64,000 nucleotides of DNA, from NCBI RefSeq assembly GCF_900104535.1, contig NZ_LT629710.1, positions 1,240,001 through 1,304,000 on the forward strand, read 5' to 3'. A program made the translations under genes and the position numbers. Positions 45,598-64,000 of the stretch are shown here, in pieces. Each line of letters opens with the position of its first letter. Position 1 is the stretch's first letter. The DNA is from Nakamurella panacisegetis. GTDB lineage: Bacteria > Actinomycetota > Actinomycetes > Mycobacteriales > Nakamurellaceae. A model generated the notes under the pieces. It had not been told where the DNA came from and ran no database searches. It worked only from the letters and a program-made list of their open reading frames with translations.

Positions 45598-46152
45598 ATG
45601 ACGGAGCAATCTCCACGCTTTGTGGTGGTCGGACCCGACGGGCAGCCCGTCGGCATGGCCGGGCACGCCCAGCTGACGTCTGCTCCGGCGGAGGCGGAGG
45701 CGGACGCCCCGAGCGCGGAGGACGCGGAGCGGGCCATCGGCGAACCGGCGAAGGTGATGCGCATCGGCACCATGATCAAGCAGCTGCTGGAGGAGGTGCG
45801 GGCGGCTCCGCTCGACGAGGCCAGCCGGGTGCGGCTCAAGGACATCCATGCGGCGTCGATCAAGGAGCTGGAATCGGGCCTGACCCCGGACCTCCGGGAG
45901 GAGCTGGAGCGGCTGACCCTGCCCTTCACCGAGGACTCGGTTCCGTCGGACGCCGAACTCCGCATCGCCCAGGCGCAGCTGGTGGGCTGGCTGGAAGGGG
46001 TCTTCCACGGCCTGCAGGCCGCACTGGTGGCCCAGCAGTTGGCGGCCAGGGCGCAGCTCGAGCAGATGCGCCGCGGCGCGCTGCCCCCCGGTTCGCACGA
46101 CGGGCCGGACGGCCCCGCCGGTGGCCACACCGGTAGCGGGCAGTACCTGTAG
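45598..46152 (+). CDS. bpa: Bacterial proteasome activator
   Basis: The 184-residue protein has a variable N-terminus, a helical core (AKVMRIGTMIKQLLEEVRAA, LKDIHAASIKELESGLTPDL, LRIAQAQLVGWLEGVFHGLQ, QLAARAQLEQMRRG) and ends SGQYL. The final GQYL is the HbYX-type tail that docks into the proteasome alpha ring and opens its gate. The family (Bpa/PafE) forms a dodecameric ring that feeds unfolded proteins to the 20S proteasome without ATP. No other proteasome gene is in the window. Confidence 0.92.
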   Translation: MTEQSPRFVVVGPDGQPVGMAGHAQLTSAPAEAEADAPSAEDAERAIGEPAKVMRIGTMIKQLLEEVRAAPLDEASRVRLKDIHAASIKELESGLTPDLREELERLTLPFTEDSVPSDAELRIAQAQLVGWLEGVFHGLQAALVAQQLAARAQLEQMRRGALPPGSHDGPDGPAGGHTGSGQYL

Positions 46153-46186
46153 GCGGCCGGACCGGCGTCAGGGAGGATCTGGTTCC

Positions 46187-47560
46187 ATGCCCACGGTTTT
46201 GAAATCCACGGTGAACCGCGACCGCCTGTCCGAGTTGTACGAGCGCGAACGCGCCACGTTCGTCCTGACCCATCCACGGTCGGCGGCGCTGGCCGAGCAG
46301 GCCGCCACGCACATGCCGGGTGGTGTGCCGATGAGTTGGATGGTCAAGTGGCCCGGTGACTTTCCGATCTTCATCGATACCGCGAAGGGCGCCCACTTCA
46401 CCGACGTCGACGGGATCGACTACGTGGACTTCTGTCTCGGCGACACGGGCGCCATGGCCGGGCACTCCCCCGCCGCCACCATCGCTGCGGTGACGGCCCA
46501 ACTGGCCAAGGGCATCACCACCATGCTGCCCACGGCGGATGCCATCACCGTGTCGGCCGAACTGGCCGAGCGATTCGGACTTCCGTTGTGGCAGTTCACC
46601 TTGACCGCCACCGACGCGAATCGTCATGCCATTCGGTACGCCCGGCTGCTGACCGGTCGGCGCAAAATCGTGGTCCACAACTTCTGCTACCACGGCAGCG
46701 TCGACGAGGCCTTCGCCACGCTGGACGCCGACGGCCGCACCGTGGACCGTCGGTCCAACATCGGGCCCGGCGTGCCGACGTCGGAGACGACCATCGTCGT
46801 CGAGTTCAACGATCTCGCGGCGATGGAAGCGGCCCTGGCCACTGGCGAGGTGGCCGCCGTCCTGCTGGAGCCGGCGCTGACCAACATCGGCATCGTGCTT
46901 CCGGCTCCGGGCTACCACCAGGCCGTCCGGGAGCTCACGCGCCGGTACGGCGTGGTGCTGATCAACGACGAGACCCACACCATCTGCGCCGGGCCCGGCG
47001 GGTTGACCCGGGCGGCCGGCCTGGAGCCGGACATGCTGGTGATCGGGAAGTCGATCGGCGGCGGAATTGCCTGCGGCACCTTCGGCATGACGGACGAGAT
47101 GGCCGGCCGCATCGAACGGATGGTCCCGCTGGAGGACATCGACGTCGGCGGTATCGGCGGGACCCTGGCCGGCAACGGACTGTCGATGGCCGCGATGGCG
47201 GCCACCCTGACCGAAGTACTGACCGAGGCGGCGTTCGTGAAGATGATCCCGCTGGCCGACCGCTGGGCCGACGGCGTCCAGGCCGGGATCGATGCGGTCG
47301 GCGCGCCGTGGCACGTCACGCGGTTGGGGTGCCGGGCCGAGTACGGATTCTCCCCGGAGGAGCCGGTGAACGGCTCGGAGGCGGCGGCGTCCGACGACTT
47401 CGAACTGCAGCAGCTACTGCACCTCTACGCCCTGAACCGCGGAATCCTGCTGACCCCGTTCCACAACATGGCTCTGATGTGCCCGGACACCACCGAAGCC
47501 GATGTCGATGCCCACACGCAGATGTTCGCCGACCTGTGCCAGGAGCTCTTCGCGGGCTGA
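46187..47560 (+). CDS. Class III PLP-dependent aminotransferase
   Basis: The 457-residue protein has ERERATFVLTHPRSAALAEQ, MPGGVPMSWMVKWPGDFPIF, VDFCLGDTGAMAGHSPAATI, LINDETHTICAGPGGLTRAA and the PLP Lys in MLVIGKSIGGGIACGTFGMT. It resembles glutamate-1-semialdehyde-type aminotransferases of the aspartate-aminotransferase class III group. The close polyamine genes suggest an amine such as GABA or a diamine as donor, but the sequence does not fix the substrate. GGAGG lies nine bases before the ATG. Confidence 0.85.
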   Translation: MPTVLKSTVNRDRLSELYERERATFVLTHPRSAALAEQAATHMPGGVPMSWMVKWPGDFPIFIDTAKGAHFTDVDGIDYVDFCLGDTGAMAGHSPAATIAAVTAQLAKGITTMLPTADAITVSAELAERFGLPLWQFTLTATDANRHAIRYARLLTGRRKIVVHNFCYHGSVDEAFATLDADGRTVDRRSNIGPGVPTSETTIVVEFNDLAAMEAALATGEVAAVLLEPALTNIGIVLPAPGYHQAVRELTRRYGVVLINDETHTICAGPGGLTRAAGLEPDMLVIGKSIGGGIACGTFGMTDEMAGRIERMVPLEDIDVGGIGGTLAGNGLSMAAMAATLTEVLTEAAFVKMIPLADRWADGVQAGIDAVGAPWHVTRLGCRAEYGFSPEEPVNGSEAAASDDFELQQLLHLYALNRGILLTPFHNMALMCPDTTEADVDAHTQMFADLCQELFAG

Positions 47561-48090: not shown

Positions 48091-50472
48091 CTAGAGGGCG
48101 CGGCTGTGCGGCGACTCCTTCGCGGGACCCGTCTGCGGGCGCACCGGCTCCGGGTGCGGATCGCCCGGCTTGGTCGGGGCCGGCCCGGAATCCCGCAGGT
48201 TGCCCGAGTCGATCGCCGCTGGACCCTGCTCGCGCATGGCCCAGGGCGAGCCGTATTCCGTGAGCAGCGTCAGGAACGGAACCGCGTCGAAGGCCTCCGG
48301 CCCCAGCACGCCGGCCCCGGACCAGGCGCCGCGGGCGATGAGCTCCATGGCGACCACCGGGCACACCGCGGTCTGCCAGACGACCGCCTGGGAGTTGTAC
48401 TCCCGCATCGACCACTCGTTGTCGACCACGTGGTAGAGGTACACCTCCCGCGGATTGCCCTGCTTGTCCAGGCCCTTGACCCAGGTGCCGGCGCAGGTCT
48501 TGCCGTGCATCTTGTCGCCTAGGGTGGCCGGGTCGGGGAGCAGCACGGCGATGACGTCACGCGGGGAGACCATCACCGACCCGACCTGCAGCCGCTCGGC
48601 CGAGTCGATGCCCAACTTGCGCTGCAGCTTGAGCATCTCGATGAACTCCTGGCCGAGGCCGTACTTGAACGTCACGCGGTTGGTGTCCAGCCAGCGCGGC
48701 ATCAGCAGGACTTCCTCGTGCTCCACATTGACGCACTCGACCGGTCCGATGCCCTCCGGGAAGTCGAACACCTCAGGCTCGGAGAACGGCGCCGTGGTGA
48801 ACCAGCCGCGGCCCTTCTCGTAGATGATCGGCGGGTTCAGGCACTCCTCGATCGTCGTCCAGATGGAGAACGTCGGTGCGAAGTCGTAGCCGTCCACCTG
48901 GAGGTTGCCGCCATCGCGGACCCCGATCTCCTCGATGTGGCTGAACAGGTGGTCCGAGGCGTATTTGGCGAAGACGTCGGACAGGCCCGGCTCGACCCCC
49001 ATGCCGACCAGTGCGATCCGGTCGGCCGCCTCCCACTGCGCGGCCATGGCGAACTGCTCGTCGCCGAGCATGACGCCCGGGGTGTTGAACGGGTCGGACG
49101 GATGCGGATGCGACAGCGACATGGCCATGTCGAGGTAGTGCGCCTTGCCCTGCAGCGCGGCGTTGAACAGCGGCATGACGAACCGCGGATCGGTGGCGTT
49201 GAGCAGCAGGTCGCAGCGATACCGGCTCAGCAGCCCCACCACGTCCTCGATCTTGCGCGCGTCGACCTGCGCCGGGATGAACCGCCCGTCGCCGACCGAT
49301 TCACAGGTGTGCTCGGACTTGGCCAGGTCGTAGTCGGCGACCACCATGGCTTCGATGTAGTCCCTCCGGGCCGCGGTGGCCACCACCGCCGAGCCGACGC
49401 CGCCCGCCCCGACCAGCAGCACCCGGAGCTTGCCCGGGGACGAGCGCACCGCCGGAGCATTCCGTCCGGCCAGCACCGGGGTGGATTCGTCCCACACCGT
49501 CCCGGCGGCGGCATCCGCACGACGACGGGCGATGCCGGACAACGTCTCCAGCACCACCCGGTTGCCGAGCATCGCGGTGACGTCGGCATGGTCGTACGGC
49601 GGGGCGACCTCGACGATCTCCAGGCCGACCAGATTGACCTCGCGCCCGATCCGGCGAACCGCGTCCAGCAGTTCCCGGCCGGTCAGGCCACCTGGCTCCG
49701 GAGTGCCGGTGCCCGGGGCCAGACCGGGGTCGACCACATCGATGTCGACGGACAGGAACACGCCGTCGGTGTCTACCGAGGCCAACGCGATGGCTTCGGT
49801 CAGCACGTCGTCCAGACCGCGCCGCTGGATCTCGGCCATCTCGAATCCGCGCATGCCCTGCTCGGCCATCCAGGCCAGCTCCGGCGGCTCCGGCCAATAG
49901 CCGCGCAGCCCGATCTGGAAGAACTTGCTGCCCTTGACCGCGCCCGACTCGATGACGCGCCGCATCGGCAGGCCGTGGCCGTAGAGGGACCCGAACTGGA
50001 TGTCGCCGGTATCGGCGTGGGCGTCGAAGTGGATGACGGCGATCCGCCCGTACCCATAGTGCTCGGCCAGACCCGTGATGTCGGCCATGGCCACGGTGTG
50101 GTCGCCGCCCAGCACGATCGGGATCTTGTCGGCCGCGGCCAGCTGGGTGATCACCGTCTGCAGAGCCCGCAGGGATCTGATCGTCTCGGTCGGGGCCATC
50201 TCGACGTCACCGGCGTCGACGACGCCCAGGTCGAGCAACGGGTCCACCCGGAGCGAGAGGTGGGGCCGGGAGCCGGTGTGCTCGGAATAGTCGACGGTGC
50301 GCAGGGCCATCGGGCCCATCCGGGCGCCGGACCGGTAGGAGGTCCCCGAGTCGTACGGAGCTCCGACGATCACGGCGGACGCGTCGGCGTAGGTGGAGGG
50401 ATCGGACAGATCGCAGCGCGGAACTCCGGTGAAGGTGACATCGGGTCCGTACATTGCGCCGTAGCGCGCCAT
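48091..50472 (-). CDS. Agmatinase fused to a saccharopine-dehydrogenase-type domain
   Basis: The 793-residue protein joins two enzymes. The first ~325 residues are a ureohydrolase with all manganese ligands: LGGDHTVAMADITG, VIHFDAHADTGD and LSVDIDVVDPGLAPGTGTPE; agmatinase hydrolyses agmatine to putrescine and urea. From about residue 345 a new Rossmann domain begins (LRVLLVGAGGVGSAVVATAA) and continues as a saccharopine/carboxynorspermidine-dehydrogenase-like protein (LLNATDPRFVMPLFNAALQG, ALVGMGVEPGLSDVFAKYAS). A ~30-residue Pro-rich tail ends it. The ATG at 50472 is chosen because AGGAG is 11 bases before it; a TTG three codons earlier is too close to it. The fusion suggests putrescine or agmatine is passed to an NAD(P)-linked step. 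Confidence 0.85.
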   Translation of the reverse strand: MARYGAMYGPDVTFTGVPRCDLSDPSTYADASAVIVGAPYDSGTSYRSGARMGPMALRTVDYSEHTGSRPHLSLRVDPLLDLGVVDAGDVEMAPTETIRSLRALQTVITQLAAADKIPIVLGGDHTVAMADITGLAEHYGYGRIAVIHFDAHADTGDIQFGSLYGHGLPMRRVIESGAVKGSKFFQIGLRGYWPEPPELAWMAEQGMRGFEMAEIQRRGLDDVLTEAIALASVDTDGVFLSVDIDVVDPGLAPGTGTPEPGGLTGRELLDAVRRIGREVNLVGLEIVEVAPPYDHADVTAMLGNRVVLETLSGIARRRADAAAGTVWDESTPVLAGRNAPAVRSSPGKLRVLLVGAGGVGSAVVATAARRDYIEAMVVADYDLAKSEHTCESVGDGRFIPAQVDARKIEDVVGLLSRYRCDLLLNATDPRFVMPLFNAALQGKAHYLDMAMSLSHPHPSDPFNTPGVMLGDEQFAMAAQWEAADRIALVGMGVEPGLSDVFAKYASDHLFSHIEEIGVRDGGNLQVDGYDFAPTFSIWTTIEECLNPPIIYEKGRGWFTTAPFSEPEVFDFPEGIGPVECVNVEHEEVLLMPRWLDTNRVTFKYGLGQEFIEMLKLQRKLGIDSAERLQVGSVMVSPRDVIAVLLPDPATLGDKMHGKTCAGTWVKGLDKQGNPREVYLYHVVDNEWSMREYNSQAVVWQTAVCPVVAMELIARGAWSGAGVLGPEAFDAVPFLTLLTEYGSPWAMREQGPAAIDSGNLRDSGPAPTKPGDPHPEPVRPQTGPAKESPHSRAL

Positions 50473-50751
50473 GGGATTCAACTCTCCTGCTCGTTGGTCG
50501 GCCCTGGGTGGATTCGGGCCGTTCGTTGCCGTTCAGTTGTTGCCGTTCACCGCGCCGCGGTGACGCTCCTGGTGCTGTCAGCTTGGCCGTGGGCACAACG
50601 CATGTGCAAGTGCGACGGCGTTCACACAACGGATGATGCGTGAGGCGGGCGTACCAGCCGTGCCCGGGTTCGATGGCTCAACGGAAGGCGCCCGTCGCAT
50701 TCGGATGTTGCGGCCGGCCGATGACGGCGGATCCCGGCCATCCCGGGCGGC

Positions 50752-50881: not shown

Positions 50882-52315
50882 TCAGCTGTCGAAACCGAGA
50901 CCGAAGCGGTCGAGGGAGCGGAGCCAGAGGTTACGGTGACCGGCACGGGCGTCGGCGCGGGCGGCCGACCATCGGGTCATGTTGATCACCGCGGACCGCA
51001 GCGGCTCGGGCGGGAACGGCACCGGCTTGGCCCGGACGGTGTTCAGCGACGTCAACTCGGTCTTCTCCCCCGACAGCAGATCCAGCATCACCTGGGCCCC
51101 GAACCGGGTCGCACCGACCCCGAGCCCCGTGTAACCGGTGGCGTAGGCCACCCGGCCGCCGTAGCCGGTCCCGAAGAACGGGAAGAACCGGGAGCAGGTG
51201 TCGATGACGCCACCCCAGGTGTGGGTGAAGCGGGTGCCCTCGAGCTGCGGGAAGGTGGCGAAGAAGTGCTCGGCCAGCCGTTTGAACGTCTCCGGCCGCT
51301 GGTCCAGCACCGGGTCGATCCGGTTGCCGTAGTGGTAGATGACGTCGTAACCGCCCCAGAGGATGCAGTTGTCGTCGGTCAGGCGGTAGTAGTGGAACTG
51401 GTTACCGGCGTCGCTGACCCCTTGCCGTCCCTTCCACCCGATGGTGTCCATCTGCGCGTCGGTCAGCGGCTCGGTCGCCATGGCGTAGTCGTACACCGGC
51501 ACCACGTAGGGCCGCACCCGCTTCAACAGCGACGGAAACGCATTGGTGCCCAACGCAACCCGCTTGGCCCGCAGCGCTCCGTGCGGAGAGGTGAGCACCA
51601 TGTCGTCACCGTCCCGGGTCATCCCCTCGACGTGTGTGTTCTCCATGATCTTCACCCCCAGCGACTCGCAGGCGTCGGCCAATCCCCAGACCAGGCGGGC
51701 CGGATCGACCAGCACCGTCTTGTCGCGGCCGTTCACCGCGCCGAGGTAGGTCGGTGAGTTGACCAGCGCGCGCGTGGCGGCCTGGTCGAGAAGTTCGGCG
51801 TCGTCACCGAAGTCGAGCATCCGCTCGTAGTCGGCGGCCAGATCCCCGATCTGGTAGCTCTCGGTGGCAACCTTCAGCTCACCGGTCTTCTCGAGCTTGC
51901 AGTCGATCTGGAAGTCCTCGATCGTCTTCACGATGCCGGCCAGGTTGTCCCGGCCCCGGCGCTCCAGGCGCGGCATGTCCTCGGGATACCAGTCCATCCC
52001 GTTGGCCTGACCGTGGGTCAGAGAGGCGGAACAGAAACCGCCGTTGCGTCCGGAGGCGGCCCACCCCAGGGTCTTTCCCTCCAGCACGACCACGTCGCGG
52101 GACGGGTCCTCCTGTTTGGCCAGCAGCGCCGTCCAGAGGCCGGAATAGCCTCCACCGATGACGGCGAGATCGGTCTTGTTGTTCGGTCCGGTCAACCGCT
52201 CACGCGGGTCCGGCGCATCGACATCGTCGAGCCACCAGCAGATCGGCTCGGAGTCGGACAGAGAATTCCGGACGGCTTTCGATCGCGAACGACCGGCTGG
52301 AAGCAGAGGCGACAC
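50882..52315 (-). CDS. DAO-family FAD oxidoreductase, gamma-glutamylputrescine-oxidase-like
   Basis: The 477-residue protein starts at GTG and has the FAD site TDLAVIGGGYSGLWTALLAK at about residues 48-67, VVVLEGKTLGWAASGRNGGF, AKRVALGTNAFPSLLKRVRP and VAYATGYTGLGVGATRFGAQ. These are the marks of the DAO/PuuB group. The stretch SASLTHGQANGMDWYPEDM after the first motif is typical of actinobacterial PuuB-like oxidases. It probably oxidises an amine to an aldehyde. Its start is seven bases after the 46-residue gene. The missing PuuA-like ligase means its true substrate may be a free amine. Confidence 0.85.
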   Translation of the reverse strand: MSPLLPAGRSRSKAVRNSLSDSEPICWWLDDVDAPDPRERLTGPNNKTDLAVIGGGYSGLWTALLAKQEDPSRDVVVLEGKTLGWAASGRNGGFCSASLTHGQANGMDWYPEDMPRLERRGRDNLAGIVKTIEDFQIDCKLEKTGELKVATESYQIGDLAADYERMLDFGDDAELLDQAATRALVNSPTYLGAVNGRDKTVLVDPARLVWGLADACESLGVKIMENTHVEGMTRDGDDMVLTSPHGALRAKRVALGTNAFPSLLKRVRPYVVPVYDYAMATEPLTDAQMDTIGWKGRQGVSDAGNQFHYYRLTDDNCILWGGYDVIYHYGNRIDPVLDQRPETFKRLAEHFFATFPQLEGTRFTHTWGGVIDTCSRFFPFFGTGYGGRVAYATGYTGLGVGATRFGAQVMLDLLSGEKTELTSLNTVRAKPVPFPPEPLRSAVINMTRWSAARADARAGHRNLWLRSLDRFGLGFDS

Positions 52316-56666: not shown

Positions 56667-58190
56667 TCAGAGCCGGGATCCGGAATCCGGCAAGGCGAAG
56701 ATGGTCCGGTGCCAGTCCTTGCGGGCCGCCCCGGTCCGGTCCATGGCGACGTGCTTGATCTGCGAGTACTCGTGCAGCGAGTAGACGCTCATGTCCTTGC
56801 CGAACCCGGATGCCCCGTAGCCGCCATGAGGCATCTCGGAGAAGATCGGGATGTGGTCGTTGATCCAGACCGTGCCCGCCCGCAGTTCCGCGCTGGCCCG
56901 GAGCGCCCGGCGCACATTCGTCGTCCAGGCCGAAGCGGCCAGACCGAACGGCGAGTCGTTGGCCAGGGCGAGGGCCTCGTCGTCCCCGCGGAACCCGATG
57001 ACGGTCAGGACCGGCCCGAAGATCTCGTCCTGCACGATGGGGCTGCGCTGGTCGGCCCCGACCACCAGGGTCGGCAGCTGCCAGAACCCGCCGGCCGGAT
57101 CCCACCCGGAACGATTGCGGCGCGGCGGCTTTCCGGGTGCGATCAGTCGCGCGCCCGAACTCTGGGCGGCGGCCAGCATAGCGGCCACCTTGTCGCGGTG
57201 CCGCGCGCTGGACAGCGGACCGATGTCGGTGGCCGGGTCCATCGGATCGCCCAGCACCAGGCCGGCGAGCAGGTCGGCGACCCCGTCGACGAAGGCCTCG
57301 ACCAACGATTCGTGAACATAGGCCCGGGTGGCGGCGGTGCAGTCCTGCCCGGTGTTGATCAGAGCGGCGGCCACCGCACCGTGCACCGCTGCGTCCAGGT
57401 CGGCGTCGTCGAAAACCACGAACGGCGCCTTGCCGCCGAGTTCCAGGTGCACCCTCGCGGCCCGCGGCGCGCAGGCCGCCATCACCTGACGGCCGACCGC
57501 CGTCGAACCGGTGAACGACACCATGTCGACGCCCGGGTGGGCGACCAGTGCGCGTCCGGCGTCCGAACCGGTGCCCGGGACGACGTTGATGACCCCGTCC
57601 GGGAACCCGGCCGCCTGGGCCGCCTCGGCGAACAGCAGGGCCGTGATCGGAGTGATCTCGGCCGGTTTCAGCACGATGGTGTTACCGGCCGCCACCGCGG
57701 GCAGGATCTTCCAGCCGGCCATCTGCAGCGGGTAGTTCCACGGAGCGATCGAACCGATCACCCCGATCGGCTCGCGCCGGATCATCGACGTGTGGTCGGC
57801 CGAGTACTCCCCGGCGGCGCTCCCCTCGAGGACGCGGGCCGCGCCGCCGAAGAAGGCCGTGTTGTCGATGGTCCCGGGTACGTCGAAGCCGGTGGAGAGC
57901 TTGATCGGCTTCCCGGTTTGTGACGTCTCCACCTCGGCCAGTTCGCGTGCCTTGGACCGCAGCTCGACCGCCAGCGCGGCCAGTAGCTCCGACCGCTCGC
58001 CGGGCGTGGTCGCCGACCAGCCACCGAAGGCCGCCCGGGCCGCCGCGACCGCGCGGTCGACGTCGGCTTCGACGGCCAACGGGTAGCTGGTGACCACCCG
58101 CCCGGTGGCCGGATCCAGCACGGGGAACTGCTCCCCGCCTCCATCGACCAATTGCCCGCCGACGAAGCAGGGCACGCGCGACGAACTCAT
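56667..58190 (-). CDS. Aldehyde dehydrogenase, probably gamma-aminobutyraldehyde type
   Basis: The 507-residue enzyme has IAPWNYPLQMAGWKILPAVA, FTGSTAVGRQVMAACAPRAA, the catalytic Glu in LELGGKAPFVVFDDAD and the catalytic Cys in NTGQDCTAATRAYVHESL. DEIFGPVLTVIGF is also present. It overlaps the potC stop (ATGA) and so closes the polyamine transport operon; it probably oxidises the aminoaldehyde made from putrescine. A short basic C-terminal extension (RTGAARKDWHRTIFALPD) follows the usual end of the fold. Confidence 0.9.
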   Translation of the reverse strand: MSSSRVPCFVGGQLVDGGGEQFPVLDPATGRVVTSYPLAVEADVDRAVAAARAAFGGWSATTPGERSELLAALAVELRSKARELAEVETSQTGKPIKLSTGFDVPGTIDNTAFFGGAARVLEGSAAGEYSADHTSMIRREPIGVIGSIAPWNYPLQMAGWKILPAVAAGNTIVLKPAEITPITALLFAEAAQAAGFPDGVINVVPGTGSDAGRALVAHPGVDMVSFTGSTAVGRQVMAACAPRAARVHLELGGKAPFVVFDDADLDAAVHGAVAAALINTGQDCTAATRAYVHESLVEAFVDGVADLLAGLVLGDPMDPATDIGPLSSARHRDKVAAMLAAAQSSGARLIAPGKPPRRNRSGWDPAGGFWQLPTLVVGADQRSPIVQDEIFGPVLTVIGFRGDDEALALANDSPFGLAASAWTTNVRRALRASAELRAGTVWINDHIPIFSEMPHGGYGASGFGKDMSVYSLHEYSQIKHVAMDRTGAARKDWHRTIFALPDSGSRL

Positions 58191-59047
58191 TTGAGCCGGT
58201 TCCGCCGGCTTCCGACCACGCGGCCGCTGACCACGAAGACCAACGCCACCAACATCATCGCCGTGCCGACCACGTTGACCTGCACCGGGACGCCCCGCTG
58301 GGCCACGCCCCACACGTACATCGGGAAGGTGACCCGAGAGCCGGAGTTGAAGTTGGTGATGATGAAGTCGTCGAACGACAGCGAGAAGGACAGCATCGCG
58401 GCCGACACGATGCCCGGCAGCACCAACGGAAAGGTGATGCGCCAGAACGTCTGTCGCGGATTGGCGTACAGATCCATGGCGGCCTGTTCCAGCCGCGGGT
58501 CCATTCCGGCGAGCCGGGCCTTGACCGTCACGATCACGAACGACAGACAGAACATGATGTGCGCGATGACGATCGTCGTGTAGCCGAGCGGGACACCGAG
58601 GTTCAGGAACAAGGTCAACAGCGACGAACCGGCCACCACTTCCGGCGTCGCCATCGGGAGAAACACCAGGACATTCGCGGTCGCCTGGCCGCGGAATCGG
58701 TGCCGCCCGATCGCGAATGCGGCCAGCGTCCCGATGATCACCGCACCCAGAGTTGCCACCACGCCGATCCACAGGCTGGTGACCAGGGAGTCGCACAGGC
58801 CACTCGCCCCGCACGGGTTGGTCCAGGCATCGAAGGAGAACCGGTTCCACACCAGGTTGTACTTGCCCACCGGCTTGTTGAACGAGAACACGATGACCAC
58901 GAAGATCGGCGCGAACATGTAGAGCAGCGCGACGATGCCGACCACGGCGACCAACCGGTCCCGGATCCACCGTCCGACCCCCATTCCCGCCTTGGGTCGC
59001 GGCGGGGTGCTCGGAGCGGTGGACTTCGTCAGCGTCGGGGCACTCAT
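58187..59047 (-). CDS. potC: Spermidine/putrescine-type ABC permease (PotC)
   Basis: The 286-residue membrane protein has about six hydrophobic segments and the permease EAA-type motif MDPRLEQAAMDLYANPRQTF (with WRITFPLVLPGIVSAAMLSF following). It overlaps the PotB stop by ATGA. The N-terminus is Pro/Lys-rich (TLTKSTAPSTPPRPKAG). Confidence 0.9.
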   Translation of the reverse strand: MSAPTLTKSTAPSTPPRPKAGMGVGRWIRDRLVAVVGIVALLYMFAPIFVVIVFSFNKPVGKYNLVWNRFSFDAWTNPCGASGLCDSLVTSLWIGVVATLGAVIIGTLAAFAIGRHRFRGQATANVLVFLPMATPEVVAGSSLLTLFLNLGVPLGYTTIVIAHIMFCLSFVIVTVKARLAGMDPRLEQAAMDLYANPRQTFWRITFPLVLPGIVSAAMLSFSLSFDDFIITNFNSGSRVTFPMYVWGVAQRGVPVQVNVVGTAMMLVALVFVVSGRVVGSRRNRLK

Positions 59048-59976
59048 ACCAGGTCCTCGGTTCCGGAGCGGCGGACGTAGAAGACGACCAGGACGACGAT
59101 CGCGACCATCAGCACGATCGACATCGCCGCCGAGGCCGGATAGGCGAAGTTGCGGACCTGATTGTTGATGACGTTGCCGGTCATGGTGTCACTGGTGGAT
59201 CCGAGCAGTTGCGCGTTGACGTAGTCACCGGCGGCCGGGATGAAGGTCATCAGGGTGCCGCCGACCACACCGGGCAGCGACAGCGGCCACGTCACCTTCC
59301 AGAACGTCGTCCAGGAGTTCGCGTACAGGTCGCCGGCCGCATTGAACAGCGTGCGATCGATCTTCTCCAGCGACGTGTAGAGCGGAAGCACCATGAACGG
59401 CAGGAAGTTGTAGGTCAGGCCCATGATCACCGCGAACGGCGTCGCCAGCAGACGGCCCTGGGTCAGTCCGATGGCATCGGTGATGTTCATCAGGTGCGTC
59501 GACTTCATGAAGTCGACGACCACTCCGTTATCGGACAGGATCTGCTTCCAGGCCAGCGTCCGGATCAGGAAACTGGTGAAGAACGGTGCGATCACCAGCA
59601 CCAGCAGGATGCTCCGCCACCGGCCGGCCTTGAACGCGATCGTGTAGGCCAGCGGGTAGGCGATCAGGATGCACAGCAAGGTGGACAATGCGGCGAACAC
59701 GAAGGATCGGATGAACTGCGGCCAGTACTCCCGGATCACGTCACCGTAGGTCGGGAAGTGCCAGGTGAGCCGGAAACCGGTCTCGAGCGACCCCGTCATC
59801 AGCGAGGTGGAGGCCAGGGTCAGCAGCGGCAGCAGGAAGAAGACGATCATGGCCAGCGCGGCCGGGAGCAACAGGAAGAACGGCGTCAGCTTCTTCTTCT
59901 CACCACCCGGGGCCGGCACCGGGCCGACACCGCCGGGACCGGTCTCGGCCACGCCGGCCGCGGCGGCGACACTCAC
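59044..59976 (-). CDS. potB: Spermidine/putrescine-type ABC permease (PotB)
   Basis: The 310-residue protein starts at a GTG overlapping the PotA stop (GTGA). It has TPFFLLLPAALAMIVFFLLP, FFTSFLIRTLAWKQILSDNG and the coupling motif NAAGDLYANSWTTFWKVTWP. The Gly/Pro-rich first 25 residues are a non-conserved extension. It forms the channel with PotC. Confidence 0.9.
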   Translation of the reverse strand: MSVAAAAGVAETGPGGVGPVPAPGGEKKKLTPFFLLLPAALAMIVFFLLPLLTLASTSLMTGSLETGFRLTWHFPTYGDVIREYWPQFIRSFVFAALSTLLCILIAYPLAYTIAFKAGRWRSILLVLVIAPFFTSFLIRTLAWKQILSDNGVVVDFMKSTHLMNITDAIGLTQGRLLATPFAVIMGLTYNFLPFMVLPLYTSLEKIDRTLFNAAGDLYANSWTTFWKVTWPLSLPGVVGGTLMTFIPAAGDYVNAQLLGSTSDTMTGNVINNQVRNFAYPASAAMSIVLMVAIVVLVVFYVRRSGTEDLV

Positions 59977-61103
59977 GAGGCCACCTCGGCCGCTTCGGCC
60001 TCCTGCCACGCACCCTCGTGCAGTCCGAAGGTGTGGTCCGGATGCCAGTAGGCGCTGACCTTCTCGCCGACCTGGCGCAGTGAGATCGCGCTGTTCTGCG
60101 AGAAGACGGTCAGCTCCTCCTCCGCGTCCAGCGCCGACCGGACCAGGTACTGCGTCGAGACGCCGATGAACGAGGCGTCGATGATGGTTCCGTCGATGAC
60201 GTTGTAGCCGATCGGTGCCTGCCCGACGTCGGCCAGCTGGATCTTCTCGGGCCGGACCCCGACCTCCACCGCCGGCCCTTGAGCGGCCATCCGCGTGACC
60301 GGCATGTGCAGGGACACGCCGTGGAAGTCGGCCGTGAGGACGCCGCCGGAGGTGCCGGACACCCGGGCCGACAACAGGTTCGTCTGCCCCAGGAATCCGG
60401 CGACGAACGGGCTGCGCGGGTTCTCGTAGAGATCGACCGGGCTGCCGAGTTGTTCGACCTTGCCCTTGTTCATCACCGCGATGGTGTCGGCCATCGTCAT
60501 GGCCTCCTCCTGGTCGTGGGTGACGTGGACGAAGGTGATGCCGACGTCGGCCTGGATGCGCTTGAGCTCCAACTGCAACTGTCGGCGCAGTTTGAGATCC
60601 AGCGCGCCCAGCGGCTCGTCCAGCAGCAGCACCTTGGGCCGGTTGACCAGGGCCCGCACGACGGCGATGCGCTGCTGCTGACCGCCGGAGAGCTGGGTCG
60701 GCTTGCGCTGGGCCAGATGTGACAGCTCGACGAGCTCGAGCATCTCCATCACCTTGGTGCGCACGTCGGTGTCGCCCTTGCGACGCAGGCCGAACGCGAC
60801 GTTCTCGAAGATCGTCATGTGCGGGAACAGCGCGTAGTTCTGGAACACCGTGTTGACCGGACGCTGGTAGGGACGGAGCCGGGACACGTCGGTGTCGCCG
60901 ATGGTGATCTGGCCGCTGGTCGGATCCTCCAGCCCGGCGACCATCCGCAGGGTGGTGGTCTTGCCGCACCCGGACGGCCCGAGCAGGGCGAAGAACGAAC
61001 CCTCGGGCACATCCAGATCGATGTCGTCGACGGCGGTGAACGCTCCGTAGGACTTCACCAGGCCCCGGATCGCCAGGCTACCGCCACTGGACTTGTCGGC
61101 CAT
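59973..61103 (-). CDS. potA: Spermidine/putrescine ABC transporter ATPase (PotA)
   Basis: The 376-residue ATPase has Walker A LLGPSGCGKTTTLRMVAG, Q-loop FQNYALFPHMTIFENVAFGL, signature QLSGGQQQRIAVVRAL, Walker B VLLLDEPLGALD and switch His in VHVTHDQEEAMTMADTIAV. The C-terminal TOBE domain has VEVGVRPEKIQLAD. It powers polyamine uptake by PotBC and PotD. Confidence 0.93.
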   Translation of the reverse strand: MADKSSGGSLAIRGLVKSYGAFTAVDDIDLDVPEGSFFALLGPSGCGKTTTLRMVAGLEDPTSGQITIGDTDVSRLRPYQRPVNTVFQNYALFPHMTIFENVAFGLRRKGDTDVRTKVMEMLELVELSHLAQRKPTQLSGGQQQRIAVVRALVNRPKVLLLDEPLGALDLKLRRQLQLELKRIQADVGITFVHVTHDQEEAMTMADTIAVMNKGKVEQLGSPVDLYENPRSPFVAGFLGQTNLLSARVSGTSGGVLTADFHGVSLHMPVTRMAAQGPAVEVGVRPEKIQLADVGQAPIGYNVIDGTIIDASFIGVSTQYLVRSALDAEEELTVFSQNSAISLRQVGEKVSAYWHPDHTFGLHEGAWQEAEAAEVAS

Positions 61104-61108
61104 GTCTC

Positions 61109-62353
61109 TCACGCCCCTGTCAGTTTGTTGAAGTAGTCGCCGTAGCGGGTGGACAGGTCCTCGTCCAACGACATGAAGCCGTGCAGCTTCCCGGTGGTCT
61201 TGGCCGTCGGGAAGATCAACTCGTTGGCGGCCAGCGCCGCGACGTCCTTGTCCGGATCGGCGGCCACGACCGCCTTGGCCGAGGGAACGGGGCAGATGTA
61301 GTTGACGTACTCCTCCACCGTGGCCGAGACGTCCGGCTTCAGGTAGAAGTTGATCAGTTCCTCGACGCCCTTCTTGTGCGGCGTCCGGATCGGCACGACG
61401 AAGTTGTCGCTCCACCGCATAGCCCCGGCTTCGGGGAGGACGTACTGCAGCGAGGCGTCCTTCGCCTGTAGCTGGACGACGTCACCGCTCCAGGCCACGC
61501 AGGCGGCGATGTCACCGCTGGCCAGCCCCTGGGTGTATTCGTTGCCGGTGAAACTGCGGACCTGACCCGAGTTCACCGCCGCCTCGACCTTGGCGTTGGC
61601 CTTGAGGAACTGCTCCTCGGTGAAGTCCTGCGGGTCGTAGCCGAGGTCGAGCAGGACCAGACCGATGGTGTCCCGCATCTCGGTGAGCAGGGTGACCTTG
61701 CCGTGGAGGGACCGGTCGGTGAGCAACTGGTCCATGGTCTCGATGGCCTTGCCGCCGGACGATTTCGGGTTGGTGGCGATGCCGGTCAGGCCCGACTGCC
61801 AGGTCACCGAATACTTGCGGCCCGGGTCGTAGTCGACGTTCAGCAGTTGCGGGTCGAGGTTCTTCAGGTTCGGGATGTTGGCGTGATCGAGCGGGAGGGC
61901 ATAACCGAGCCGGATGATCTTGTCGGCCATCCAGTCGGTGACGCAGAAGGTGTCCGCCGAGATCGCGTCGCCGTTGGCCAGCTGGGGCTGGATCTTGGCG
62001 AAGTAGTCGTTGTTGTCGTTGACGTCCTCGGTGTAGGTGACCTTGATGCCGGTCGCCTTCTGGAACTCGTCGAGGGTCGGGTGCTTGTTCGGGTCGTTGT
62101 CGTCGACGTCGATGTACGCCTGCCAGTTCGACCAGTTGAGCTTCCGGTCGCTGTCGGTGCGGTCGGCGACGGTGGTCGGCCCGCCGGATCGCGCGGAGAT
62201 GCCGCAGGAGGCCAGGAACGCGGTCGCCGAGGCCATGCCGGCGCCCCGGAGGAAGGCCCGGCGCGGCAGCGGACGGGTGCGTCCGACTCCTTGGCCGGTC
62301 AGCGGATTGACCAGGTGCGGGGCGCCCCGACCGGGCGGTGTACGGCCTGGCAC
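61109..62353 (-). CDS. potD: Spermidine/putrescine-binding protein (PotD), Tat-type lipoprotein
   Basis: The 414-residue protein starts at GTG, with AGGAGG six bases before it. The N-terminus has twin arginines (LPRRAFLRGAGMASATAFLA) followed by the lipobox LASC, so it is probably exported folded by Tat and then lipidated. The binding fold has LNWSNWQAYIDVDDNDPNKH, FQKATGIKVTYTEDVNDNND, CVAWSGDVVQLQAKDASLQY and FVVPIRTPHKKGVEELINFY, typical of PotD-like polyamine binders. It is the first gene of potD-A-B-C-aldehyde dehydrogenase. Confidence 0.92.
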   Translation of the reverse strand: MPGRTPPGRGAPHLVNPLTGQGVGRTRPLPRRAFLRGAGMASATAFLASCGISARSGGPTTVADRTDSDRKLNWSNWQAYIDVDDNDPNKHPTLDEFQKATGIKVTYTEDVNDNNDYFAKIQPQLANGDAISADTFCVTDWMADKIIRLGYALPLDHANIPNLKNLDPQLLNVDYDPGRKYSVTWQSGLTGIATNPKSSGGKAIETMDQLLTDRSLHGKVTLLTEMRDTIGLVLLDLGYDPQDFTEEQFLKANAKVEAAVNSGQVRSFTGNEYTQGLASGDIAACVAWSGDVVQLQAKDASLQYVLPEAGAMRWSDNFVVPIRTPHKKGVEELINFYLKPDVSATVEEYVNYICPVPSAKAVVAADPDKDVAALAANELIFPTAKTTGKLHGFMSLDEDLSTRYGDYFNKLTGA

Positions 62354-62730
62354 CAGCAACCTCCTGCGAACTGCTTGGACGGGAAGGACACAAGCGGCCG
62401 CGCCGCAGACCCAGCGATCCTGACATCGAGGATCGGTAAGGGCAAGGAAAACGCCGGTTGTTTCCGTCCCGGCAACAAGACCGGTATGCCCGGGGATCGG
62501 GCCCCACCGGTGGCCCGGGTCGGTCCGCACCCCCGACGACCGCGATCACGTGCGTCGGAATGGAAGCCGGCCACGTGCACCGGCGCTGTGGTCGTCATGC
62601 GCACTCCCAGCTGTTCGAAGGGACGTTACGGTTATCGCAGTTCTTGGCCCCCTGCGCAAGGGTTTCCGTGTTGCCATCTGATTTCCTCGACGGATTCGCT
62701 TGCGTTCTGGCGTCCGACCCGGCCATCATC
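62354..62730. promoter_or_regulatory. Divergent control region between potD and the Lrp-type regulator
   Basis: This 377-bp gap separates the two divergent polyamine units and must hold both promoters. GGAAAACGCCGGTTGTTTCC (62446-62465) contains GGAAA and TTTCC in inverted array, a modest operator candidate about 95 bp before potD. I see no confident -10/-35 pair and no small gene. Confidence 0.35.
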
Positions 62731-63252
62731 ATGGATATGTCCAGATCCAACGGCGCCTCCGGAGTCGACGGTGACCCGTCGGTTGCCGTCCGCAATCGCG
62801 CGCCGATCCCACTGGACGATGTGTCCAAGGCGATCATCGAACAGTTGCAGCAGGACGGCCGGCGCCCGTACGCCACCATCGCCGCGGCGGTCGGCCTGTC
62901 GGAGGCAGCGGTAAGACAACGGGTGTCGCGGCTGATCGGGTCCGGCGTCGTCCAGATCGTCGCCGTCACCGATCCGCTGCAGGTGGGGTTCTCCCGCCAG
63001 GCCATGATCGGCATCAAGGCCGAGGGCAACCTCGAACCCGTGGTCGCCGCCCTGACCGCCATGGACGAGGTGGACTACGTCGTCATCACCGCCGGTTCGT
63101 TCGACATCCTGGCCGAGGTGGTCTGCGAGGACGACGACCACCTCCTGAGCCTTTTGAACCAACGCATCCGCACCATCGACGGCGTCCGCTCGACGGAGAG
63201 CTTCATGTACCTCAAGCTCTCGAAACAGACCTACACCTGGGGCACCCGCTGA
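62731..63252 (+). CDS. Lrp/AsnC-family transcriptional regulator
   Basis: The 173-residue protein has the AsnC helix-turn-helix (LDDVSKAIIEQLQQDGRRPY, ATIAAAVGLSEAAVRQRVSR) and the RAM ligand domain (VVAALTAMDEVDYVVITAGS, FDILAEVVCEDDDHLLSLLN). A second ATG lies six bases after the chosen start. It is divergent from potD and just upstream of the aminotransferase, so it likely controls polyamine uptake and breakdown, sensing an amine or amino acid. Confidence 0.9.
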   Translation: MDMSRSNGASGVDGDPSVAVRNRAPIPLDDVSKAIIEQLQQDGRRPYATIAAAVGLSEAAVRQRVSRLIGSGVVQIVAVTDPLQVGFSRQAMIGIKAEGNLEPVVAALTAMDEVDYVVITAGSFDILAEVVCEDDDHLLSLLNQRIRTIDGVRSTESFMYLKLSKQTYTWGTR

Positions 63253-63310
63253 CGCCGGAACCGACTGCCCCCAGACACTTTCCGAACAGACCTATGACGT
63301 GGGGAACACG

Positions 63311-64000
63311 ATGAGCACCAGCAAGGCCACCGACCATCTCTGGATGCACTTCACCCGGATGGGGAGCTACGACAATGCACCGGTTCCGACCATCGAACGC
63401 GGTGAGGGCAGCTACATCTTCGACACCAACGGCCGCAAGTACCTGGACGCCCTGTCCGGGCTGTTCACCGTCCAGGTCGGCCACGGCCGCGAGGAACTGG
63501 CCAAGGCCGCGTACGAGCAGGCCAAGAAGCTGGCCTTCTTCCCGATCTGGTCCTACGCCCACCCGACGGCCATCGAACTGGCCGACCGCCTCGCCGCGCT
63601 GGCCCCGGGTGATCTGAACAAGGTGTTCTTCTCCTCCGGCGGCGGCGAATCGGTCGAGACGGCCTGGAAGGTCGCCAAGCAGTACTTCAAGCTGATCGGG
63701 AAACCGGCCAAGCACAAGGTGATCTCGCGGGCCATCGCCTATCACGGCACCACGCAGGGGGCGCTGTCGATCACCGGCGTCCCGCCGTTCAAGGAGGCGT
63801 TCGAGCCGCTGGTGCCCGGAACCGTCCGGGTCCCGAACACCAACTTCTACCGCGCGCCGGAATTCGTCGCCGACGACGAGAAGGCGTTCGGGCTGTGGGC
63901 GGCCAACCGCATCGAGGAAGCCATCCTGGCCGAGGGTCCGAGCAGTGTGGCCGCCGTCTTCCTCGAGCCGGTCCAGAATGCCGGCGGCTGTTTCCCGCCG
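63311..64000 (+). CDS. Class III aminotransferase, putrescine/omega-amino type (partial)
   Basis: The first 230 residues are present before the window ends. They contain MHFTRMGSYDNAPVPTIERG, GSYIFDTNGRKYLDALSGLF, VFFSSGGGESVETAWKVAKQ and AIAYHGTTQGALSITGVPPF; the PLP Lys lies beyond the edge. This N-terminus is typical of putrescine- or polyamine-pyruvate aminotransferases (SpuC type). With the aldehyde dehydrogenase it would give a transaminase route from putrescine to GABA. Confidence 0.88.
   Translation, partial: MSTSKATDHLWMHFTRMGSYDNAPVPTIERGEGSYIFDTNGRKYLDALSGLFTVQVGHGREELAKAAYEQAKKLAFFPIWSYAHPTAIELADRLAALAPGDLNKVFFSSGGGESVETAWKVAKQYFKLIGKPAKHKVISRAIAYHGTTQGALSITGVPPFKEAFEPLVPGTVRVPNTNFYRAPEFVADDEKAFGLWAANRIEEAILAEGPSSVAAVFLEPVQNAGGCFPP

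Follow-up and report, generated by a model that had tools for sequence, protein, structure and literature searches.

A ureohydrolase fused to a saccharopine-dehydrogenase-fold domain in a polyamine-utilisation cluster of Nakamurella panacisegetis

One gene in a 64,000-nucleotide stretch of Nakamurella panacisegetis DNA (the window; bases 1240001-1304000 of a 5.01 Mb single-contig genome) encodes an agmatinase-like ureohydrolase joined to a saccharopine-dehydrogenase-fold domain. We call these domains and their homologues URE and SDH. By sequence, the surrounding genes make up a polyamine uptake and catabolism cluster, and SDH represents a distinct subfamily, widespread in actinobacteria, whose nearest relatives are the carboxyspermidine dehydrogenases (CASDH). 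Our best guess, held at slightly short of an even chance, is that the fusion is a bifunctional enzyme of this cluster, an agmatinase followed by an NAD-dependent polyamine oxidation to an aminoaldehyde. The fusion exposes an apparently uncharacterised enzyme family and points to a step of polyamine breakdown apparently without prior description, which supports an earlier note on this DNA that had suggested an undescribed pathway step.

The two domains share one reading frame

The open reading frame (ORF; 48091-50481, minus strand) has 796 codons counted from a TTG. The 793-residue product is the likely fusion protein because an in-frame ATG at 50472 carries AGGAGAG about 11 nt upstream. Pfam placed Arginase at residues 35-313 (E 3.1e-84), Sacchrp_dh_NADP at 354-490 (E 6.2e-18) and Sacchrp_dh_C at 495-744 (E 2.1e-22), all above the curated cut-offs. 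The product thus combines a complete ureohydrolase with a full saccharopine-dehydrogenase-fold domain.

Both halves occupied one stop-free frame in 8 of the 17 genomes of the genus, that of N. panacisegetis included, and the other seven copies were 74-92% identical to the panacisegetis fusion. The linker between the conserved tail of the ureohydrolase and the first strand of SDH was about 10 residues long in six of the eight copies and about 21 in L199 and L200. The earlier note had claimed a genuine two-domain enzyme and named as the danger to this claim a sequencing error merging two adjacent genes. Separate neighbouring URE and SDH genes do occur elsewhere, and nothing else favours a sequencing or assembly error; the recurrence of the one-frame fusion across the genus excludes it, and we give it virtually no weight. 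With the Pfam domains, this recurrence bears the claim out.

SDH differs from CASDH at NADP-contacting positions and beside the active-site Glu

We aligned SDH from the window with that of 113 other loci (114 rows). The His-Glu-Glu motif (H238, E239 and E240 in domain numbering), aligned to 8DEB, and the active-site Glu (Glu188 of CASDH, E196 of SDH) were kept in all 114 rows; B. fragilis CASDH has these residues placed around the nicotinamide (PMC10413350). SDH shares these residues, the full-length fold and GxGxxG with the CASDH/CANSDH enzymes (EC 1.5.1.43; 8DEB, 8H4Z), to which the same article assigns 4INA and 4RL6. The position equivalent to Ser144 was Ser in 85 rows and Ala in 29. The position of CASDH Ser34 was Asp (D33) in 112 of the 114 rows, Ala in L061 and a gap in the short L155. 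An Asp at such a position of a Rossmann fold favours NAD. In B. fragilis CASDH the NADP phosphate is contacted by Thr36, Lys39, an Arg and, via water, Ser34 (PMC10413350). The Arg is printed as Arg45; in the aligned CASDH chain residue 45 is Lys and residue 35 is Arg. In SDH the Arg35 position was mostly Tyr and never Arg, and the Thr36 position was mostly Asp (90 of 114). SDH probably uses NAD, since Asp replaces the NADP-contacting Ser34.

Two further positions were invariant (114/114). One is Glu195, the residue preceding the active-site Glu, and the other is Trp191; the four solved CASDH-type sequences have Arg and Glu, respectively, at these places. We read these changes as the loss of the semialdehyde (amino-acid) site, in which the Arg would have had a part, and the gain of a second cation site. 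They speak against the reductive condensation with aspartate semialdehyde that the earlier note had considered, as does the replacement of Ser34. The carboxynorspermidine synthase model NF043000 was not passed either (183.1 bits against a cut-off of 800). Annotated records name the family 'saccharopine dehydrogenase'.

The best of five AlphaFold2 models of SDH reached a pLDDT of 88.6 (the other four, 57.4-65.4; an earlier model from 22 rows, at 66.4, was not used), and it carries no information on reaction direction. Its closest folds were CASDH (Z 46.9-51.5), followed by L-lysine 6-dehydrogenase (3ABI, Z 37.3), homospermidine synthase (30.0-31.7) and saccharopine reductases and dehydrogenases (26.8-30.3).

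The second of these folds raises the alternative that SDH is an amino-acid dehydrogenase, deaminating lysine, ornithine or a similar compound with NAD. The lysine enzyme also consists of a Rossmann and a catalytic domain, Arg83 of SDH (conserved in 110 of 114 rows) could hold a carboxylate, and a Streptomyces copy (L115) lies near LysE/ArgO and ArgP genes. We consider this distinctly unlikely: the lysine enzyme acts on an amino acid and, according to PMC10413350, lacks the His-Glu-Glu that SDH keeps throughout, and the neighbours of SDH are a Pot-type transporter and an agmatinase.

In a homospermidine-synthase-like enzyme, a prosthetic NAD would oxidise one putrescine, and the imine formed with a second would be reduced to homospermidine, with the fused agmatinase supplying the putrescine. 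The likely NAD site, the His-x-Glu, the extra Glu residues and the Trp of SDH resemble that enzyme (4PLP, 6Y87, 2PH5), whose conserved residues include Trp229, His296, Glu298, Glu210 and Glu237 (PMC4725965); its Trp may or may not be the counterpart of Trp191. A polyamine substrate and NAD, both presumed for SDH, would be common to the two. By sequence, however, the synthase is far more distant from SDH than CASDH is (16-17% identity; 6y87 at E 0.29, over the N-terminal profile positions 3-166 only), it is also more distant by fold, and the cluster around the fusion is catabolic. We give this alternative an outside chance. A separate candidate, the caldomycin/homospermidine route, was rejected: its synthase is likened to human deoxyhypusine synthase and hence belongs to a different family (PMC10981699).

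The ureohydrolase probably acts on agmatine

The GGDH, DAHxD and DxD motifs, which we take to hold the metal ligands, were invariant in 26 of 26 aligned ureohydrolases (H128, D153, H155, D157, D246 and D248 in the 796-residue numbering), as expected of the complete ureohydrolase that the earlier note had described. The full domain and these motifs are common to the agmatinase/arginase family (SpeB, GbuA, GpuA, PAH), from which URE differs in forming its own subfamily with a HADT-G-(D/E) loop and in its fusion to SDH. The agmatinase model TIGR01230 was passed (187.6 bits against a cut-off of 174.3) and NF002564 was not (210.4 against 302). In phmmer searches, URE scored 182.6 bits with proclavaminate amidinohydrolase, 173.6 with guanidinopropionase, 168.1 with guanidinobutyrase and 140.1 with the agmatinase 7lol, presumably E. 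coli SpeB. Also ahead of 7lol was 7esr ('probable agmatinase 2'), which we take to be a guanidine hydrolase. The substrate is less than certain because ureohydrolases other than agmatinases outscore 7lol.

These scores would suit a guanidinobutyrase-type URE working in the reverse order, in which SDH or the DAO-family oxidoreductase turns agmatine into 4-guanidinobutanal, the aldehyde dehydrogenase makes 4-guanidinobutyrate, and URE releases GABA and urea. In arginase, the Asn after HxD binds the carboxylate. This Asn is found in proclavaminate amidinohydrolase, guanidinopropionase and guanidinobutyrase, but was Gly (23) or Ala (3) in the 26 URE rows, and the alignment leaves a gap at this position in E. 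coli SpeB. Its absence fits a substrate without a carboxylate, and together with the agmatinase model that URE passed it makes the reverse order unlikely in our view. URE probably splits agmatine.

The genes around the fusion form a polyamine uptake and catabolism cluster

A polyamine transporter, an aminotransferase and an aminobutyraldehyde dehydrogenase gene occur together around the fusion gene (Table 1), and the divergent side of the cluster also holds a second DAO-family protein. A similar set has been predicted for polyamine utilisation in Streptomyces coelicolor (SCO5655, SCO5657, SCO5658 and SCO5666-5671), comprising an aminotransferase, an aminobutyraldehyde dehydrogenase, a polyamine-binding protein, an ABC transporter and a PuuB-like oxidase (PMC5403932). 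Many of these genes, not all, are induced by polyamines, the transporter weakly and with SCO5671 as an exception; the words 'agmatinase' and 'saccharopine' are absent from the main text of that article.

Each of four polyamine-biosynthesis families searched for gave matches in some of 14 control genomes. In the N. panacisegetis genome, the carboxynorspermidine decarboxylase (nspC) model TIGR01047 had no match at E 0.001 (positive in 6 of the 14 controls), which extends genome-wide the earlier note's remark that no such gene is visible nearby. Neither an OKR-type decarboxylase (PF01276) nor a spermidine synthase was found, and the sole PF02784 protein is lysA, with no arginine or ornithine decarboxylase of that family beyond it. 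The substrate is therefore probably imported; these negatives cover the families searched for, and a decarboxylase of another kind could exist.

A biosynthetic role like that of CASDH or CAPADH would have putrescine or agmatine condensed reductively with aspartate semialdehyde and decarboxylated, with the ureohydrolase acting as in the carboxyaminopropylagmatine route (PMC11999265), which such a partner would suit. CASDH is indeed the nearest family by sequence and fold. Differing from it are the Ser34-to-Asp and Arg-to-Glu changes, the invariant Trp191, the distance from the carboxynorspermidine synthase model, the decarboxylase partners not found in the genome and the uptake and degradation genes around the fusion. 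We consider a biosynthetic role very unlikely.

Stand-alone SDH genes often lie among amine-catabolism genes

By hand count, at least 48 of the 396 phylum genomes sampled carry an SDH that is 55% or more identical to that of the window. We scored 125 SDH loci, not deduplicated, for nine amine-catabolism labels within 9 kb; 69 had at least one label and 37 at least two. An aminotransferase was near 24 of them, URE near 21, PotA near 20, an APC permease near 19, an aminobutyraldehyde dehydrogenase at 44% identity or more near 18, and a DAO protein near 17. The N. panacisegetis genome itself has nine homologues of this dehydrogenase at E 1e-60, of which only three, itself included, reach 44%. In contrast, 12 ureohydrolase-centred loci without SDH showed no other label except one Lrp. 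When the genes flanking SDH at 27 loci in other genomes were clustered, no further partner clearly stood out.

Several individual loci follow the same pattern. In the deep branches L144 and L135, SDH lies with genes for a Pot transporter, an aminobutyraldehyde dehydrogenase (46-47%) and an aminotransferase (52-54%). In L140 it directly follows an aldehyde dehydrogenase gene, and its called start overlaps the stop of that gene. In Klenkia and other Geodermatophilaceae it adjoins an APC permease.

Two other loci are recorded here as side observations. L115 is a stand-alone SDH adjoining a TetR gene, with cyclic-nucleotide-binding, MFS, LysE/ArgO and ArgP genes before an ornithine decarboxylase. 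On a plasmid of Monoglobus pectinilyticus (L116:2847-8062), speD, an aminotransferase-type gene, speE, speB and a saccharopine dehydrogenase family gene stand side by side, the last carrying the CASDH Arg-Glu and Ser-Arg-Thr residues. By sequence this set is likely a biosynthetic counterpart of the same domain pair.

A probable single fusion in the genus, and linkage of URE and SDH in separate lineages

Fused copies were found within the genus, and none was seen outside it among the sampled loci and genomes. Relatives were sampled as 80 of 451. Among 109 sampled loci, both halves shared one ORF only in L001, which is the gene described here, and in L003 of N. endophytica, whose contig recurs as L197, and in the 396 phylum genomes a single match over both halves occurred only in the own genome, among the matches listed (the weakest omitted). 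Four of the 17 genus genomes have a close ureohydrolase alone (G401, G402, G405 and G410; 83-87%), with an aminotransferase near three of them. SDH is a separate gene in four (G401, G405, G410 and G411; 66-69%), so that three of the four URE-alone genomes possess an SDH elsewhere. Neither half is present in four: G396 and G403 have no match, and G399 and G404 only a ureohydrolase at 39-40%.

In an SDH tree of 67 loci hand-picked from the 125, the eight fused copies formed one clade (support 100/100), which grouped with APC-linked, Streptosporangiaceae and Streptomyces copies (97/94) and apart from ten URE-adjacent copies (Micromonosporaceae and others). URE and SDH genes are thus linked in separate lineages. 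Most simply, the two activities would have become linked at least twice, the alternative being an ancestral linkage with many losses. Linkage arising more than once argues for one common pathway, and it makes plausible the sequential action on agmatine-derived putrescine that the earlier note had envisaged.

A URE tree of 36 rows, from which L003 was left out because it shares its contig with L197, united the fused copies of the genus with its four URE-alone copies in one clade (99/99), and two fused copies branched outside the rest. Seen alongside the single SDH clade, the topology suggests a single fusion event followed by losses of the SDH half, with gene transfer as the alternative. It looks as if the function is maintained in trans where SDH is a separate gene in URE-alone genomes. 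The four URE-alone genes (L201 in G410, L203 in G402, L205 in G405, L207 in G401) occupy the same BPA/PIG3-anchored place as the fusion, and in three of these genomes the SDH elsewhere is linked to an APC permease.

A proposed reaction and the points against it

In the reaction that we favour, the agmatine substrate, the NAD cofactor, the oxidative direction and the amine used are all inferred. The first domain would convert imported agmatine and water to putrescine and urea. SDH, as an NAD(H)-type polyamine oxidoreductase derived from carboxyspermidine-dehydrogenase stock, would then oxidise a C-N bond of putrescine or of a putrescine-containing triamine such as spermidine. The conserved His-Glu pair may act as the base, and the invariant Trp and Glu residues may hold the cationic substrate. 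Hydrolysis of the iminium would release an amine or ammonia and leave an aminoaldehyde, either 4-aminobutanal or 3-aminopropanal; NADH would be formed as well, and the neighbouring aminobutyraldehyde dehydrogenase and aminotransferase could carry the products on towards GABA. As the SDH substrate, putrescine is favoured by the fusion, and a triamine by the Pot transporter and by the occurrence of SDH in clusters with an aminotransferase of their own.

More tentatively, the SDH half may stand for a class of polyamine dehydrogenases so far unrecognised, which use NAD+ and no flavin and in effect run the CASDH reaction backwards on uncarboxylated polyamines. With similar reserve, such a class could fill a gap at the entry to polyamine catabolism across Actinomycetota, the enzyme being fused here to the agmatinase that supplies its substrate. 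The bacterial entries reviewed in PMC9397018 are gamma-glutamylation, transamination, acetylation, direct oxidation and spermine/spermidine dehydrogenase. Among the open-access papers listed, the best 20 per search where more matched, none dealt with the fusion or with a saccharopine-family enzyme of NAD type in polyamine catabolism. If the proposal is true, the electrons would be conserved through the NAD-linked dehydrogenase without peroxide being formed, and a biosynthetic reductase would have turned catabolic through few visible residue changes.

Several observations weigh against the proposed reaction. The Lys39 position stays basic in SDH (Arg in 105 and Lys in 5 of 114 rows), so NADP use is possible, and the closest solved structures are biosynthetic reductases. 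The flavin oxidase and aminotransferase of the cluster could already make 4-aminobutanal, and no aldehyde dehydrogenase homologue was seen at the locus in two of the eight fused genomes (L199 and L200; the L194 locus is cut off before the place of this gene). Among the 125 SDH loci, 56 carried no label at all, and many of these are Streptomyces copies adjoining a TetR gene. At L115 an ornithine decarboxylase gene is found about 4.5 kb from SDH. SDH in L144 and L135 is also near flavoproteins (a DAO/GCV_T protein and an FAD_binding_2 protein), which are other candidate oxidases; an argument from the absence of a flavin oxidase at these two loci was dropped for this reason. No assay of the SDH subfamily was found in the literature searched.

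Features of the window

Table 1. Coordinates of the fusion gene, its domains and the surrounding genes (window positions)
Feature	Position	Strand	Basis or remark
URE-SDH fusion gene	48091..50472	-	793 aa from ATG; 796 from upstream TTG
Saccharopine-dehydrogenase-fold domain (SDH), probable NAD-type polyamine oxidoreductase subfamily	48250..49422	-	PF03435, PF16653; conservation; model pLDDT 88.6; nearest folds CASDH
Conserved ureohydrolase tail and variable linker	49423..49542	-	Tail shared with unfused URE of the genus
Ureohydrolase (agmatinase-like) domain	49543..50379	-	PF00491 E 3.1e-84; TIGR01230; motif conservation
FAD-dependent oxidoreductase (DAO family)	50882..52315	-	PF01266 E 8.2e-54; recurring neighbour
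IPT/TIG-repeat protein, 1206 aa	52640..56260	-	Between aldehyde dehydrogenase and DAO genes
Aminobutyraldehyde dehydrogenase	56667..58175 (ORF to 58970; domain from ~58170)	-	NF010000 676.3 bits vs cut-off 615; PF00171
Polyamine ABC permease, PotC-like	58187..59047	-	PF00528; best NCBIfam model PotC, below its cut-off
Polyamine ABC permease, PotB-like	59044..60000	-	PF00528; best NCBIfam model PotB, below its cut-off
Polyamine ABC transporter ATPase PotA	ORF 59973..61415, domain from ~residue 113	-	TIGR01187 potA 364.4 bits vs cut-off 355.6
Polyamine-binding protein, PotD-like	ORF 61109..62530	-	SBP_bac_8; best NCBIfam model PotD, below its cut-off
Lrp/AsnC-type regulator, divergent	62560..63252 (L126:7561-8253)	+	AsnC_trans_reg, HTH_AsnC-type
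Class III omega-aminotransferase, start	63299..64000, runs beyond window (L126:8300-9667)	+	NF005102 (PRK06541) 806.7 bits vs cut-off 574

A homologue of the TIG-repeat protein adjoins the DAO gene in G408 (L194), and none was seen between the aldehyde dehydrogenase and DAO genes in L195, L196 and L198. Convergent to the fusion gene lies a PRK07046-type class III transaminase (46121-47560, plus strand; 638.3 bits against 425), homologues of which are also near the fusion in L194, L195, L199 and L200.

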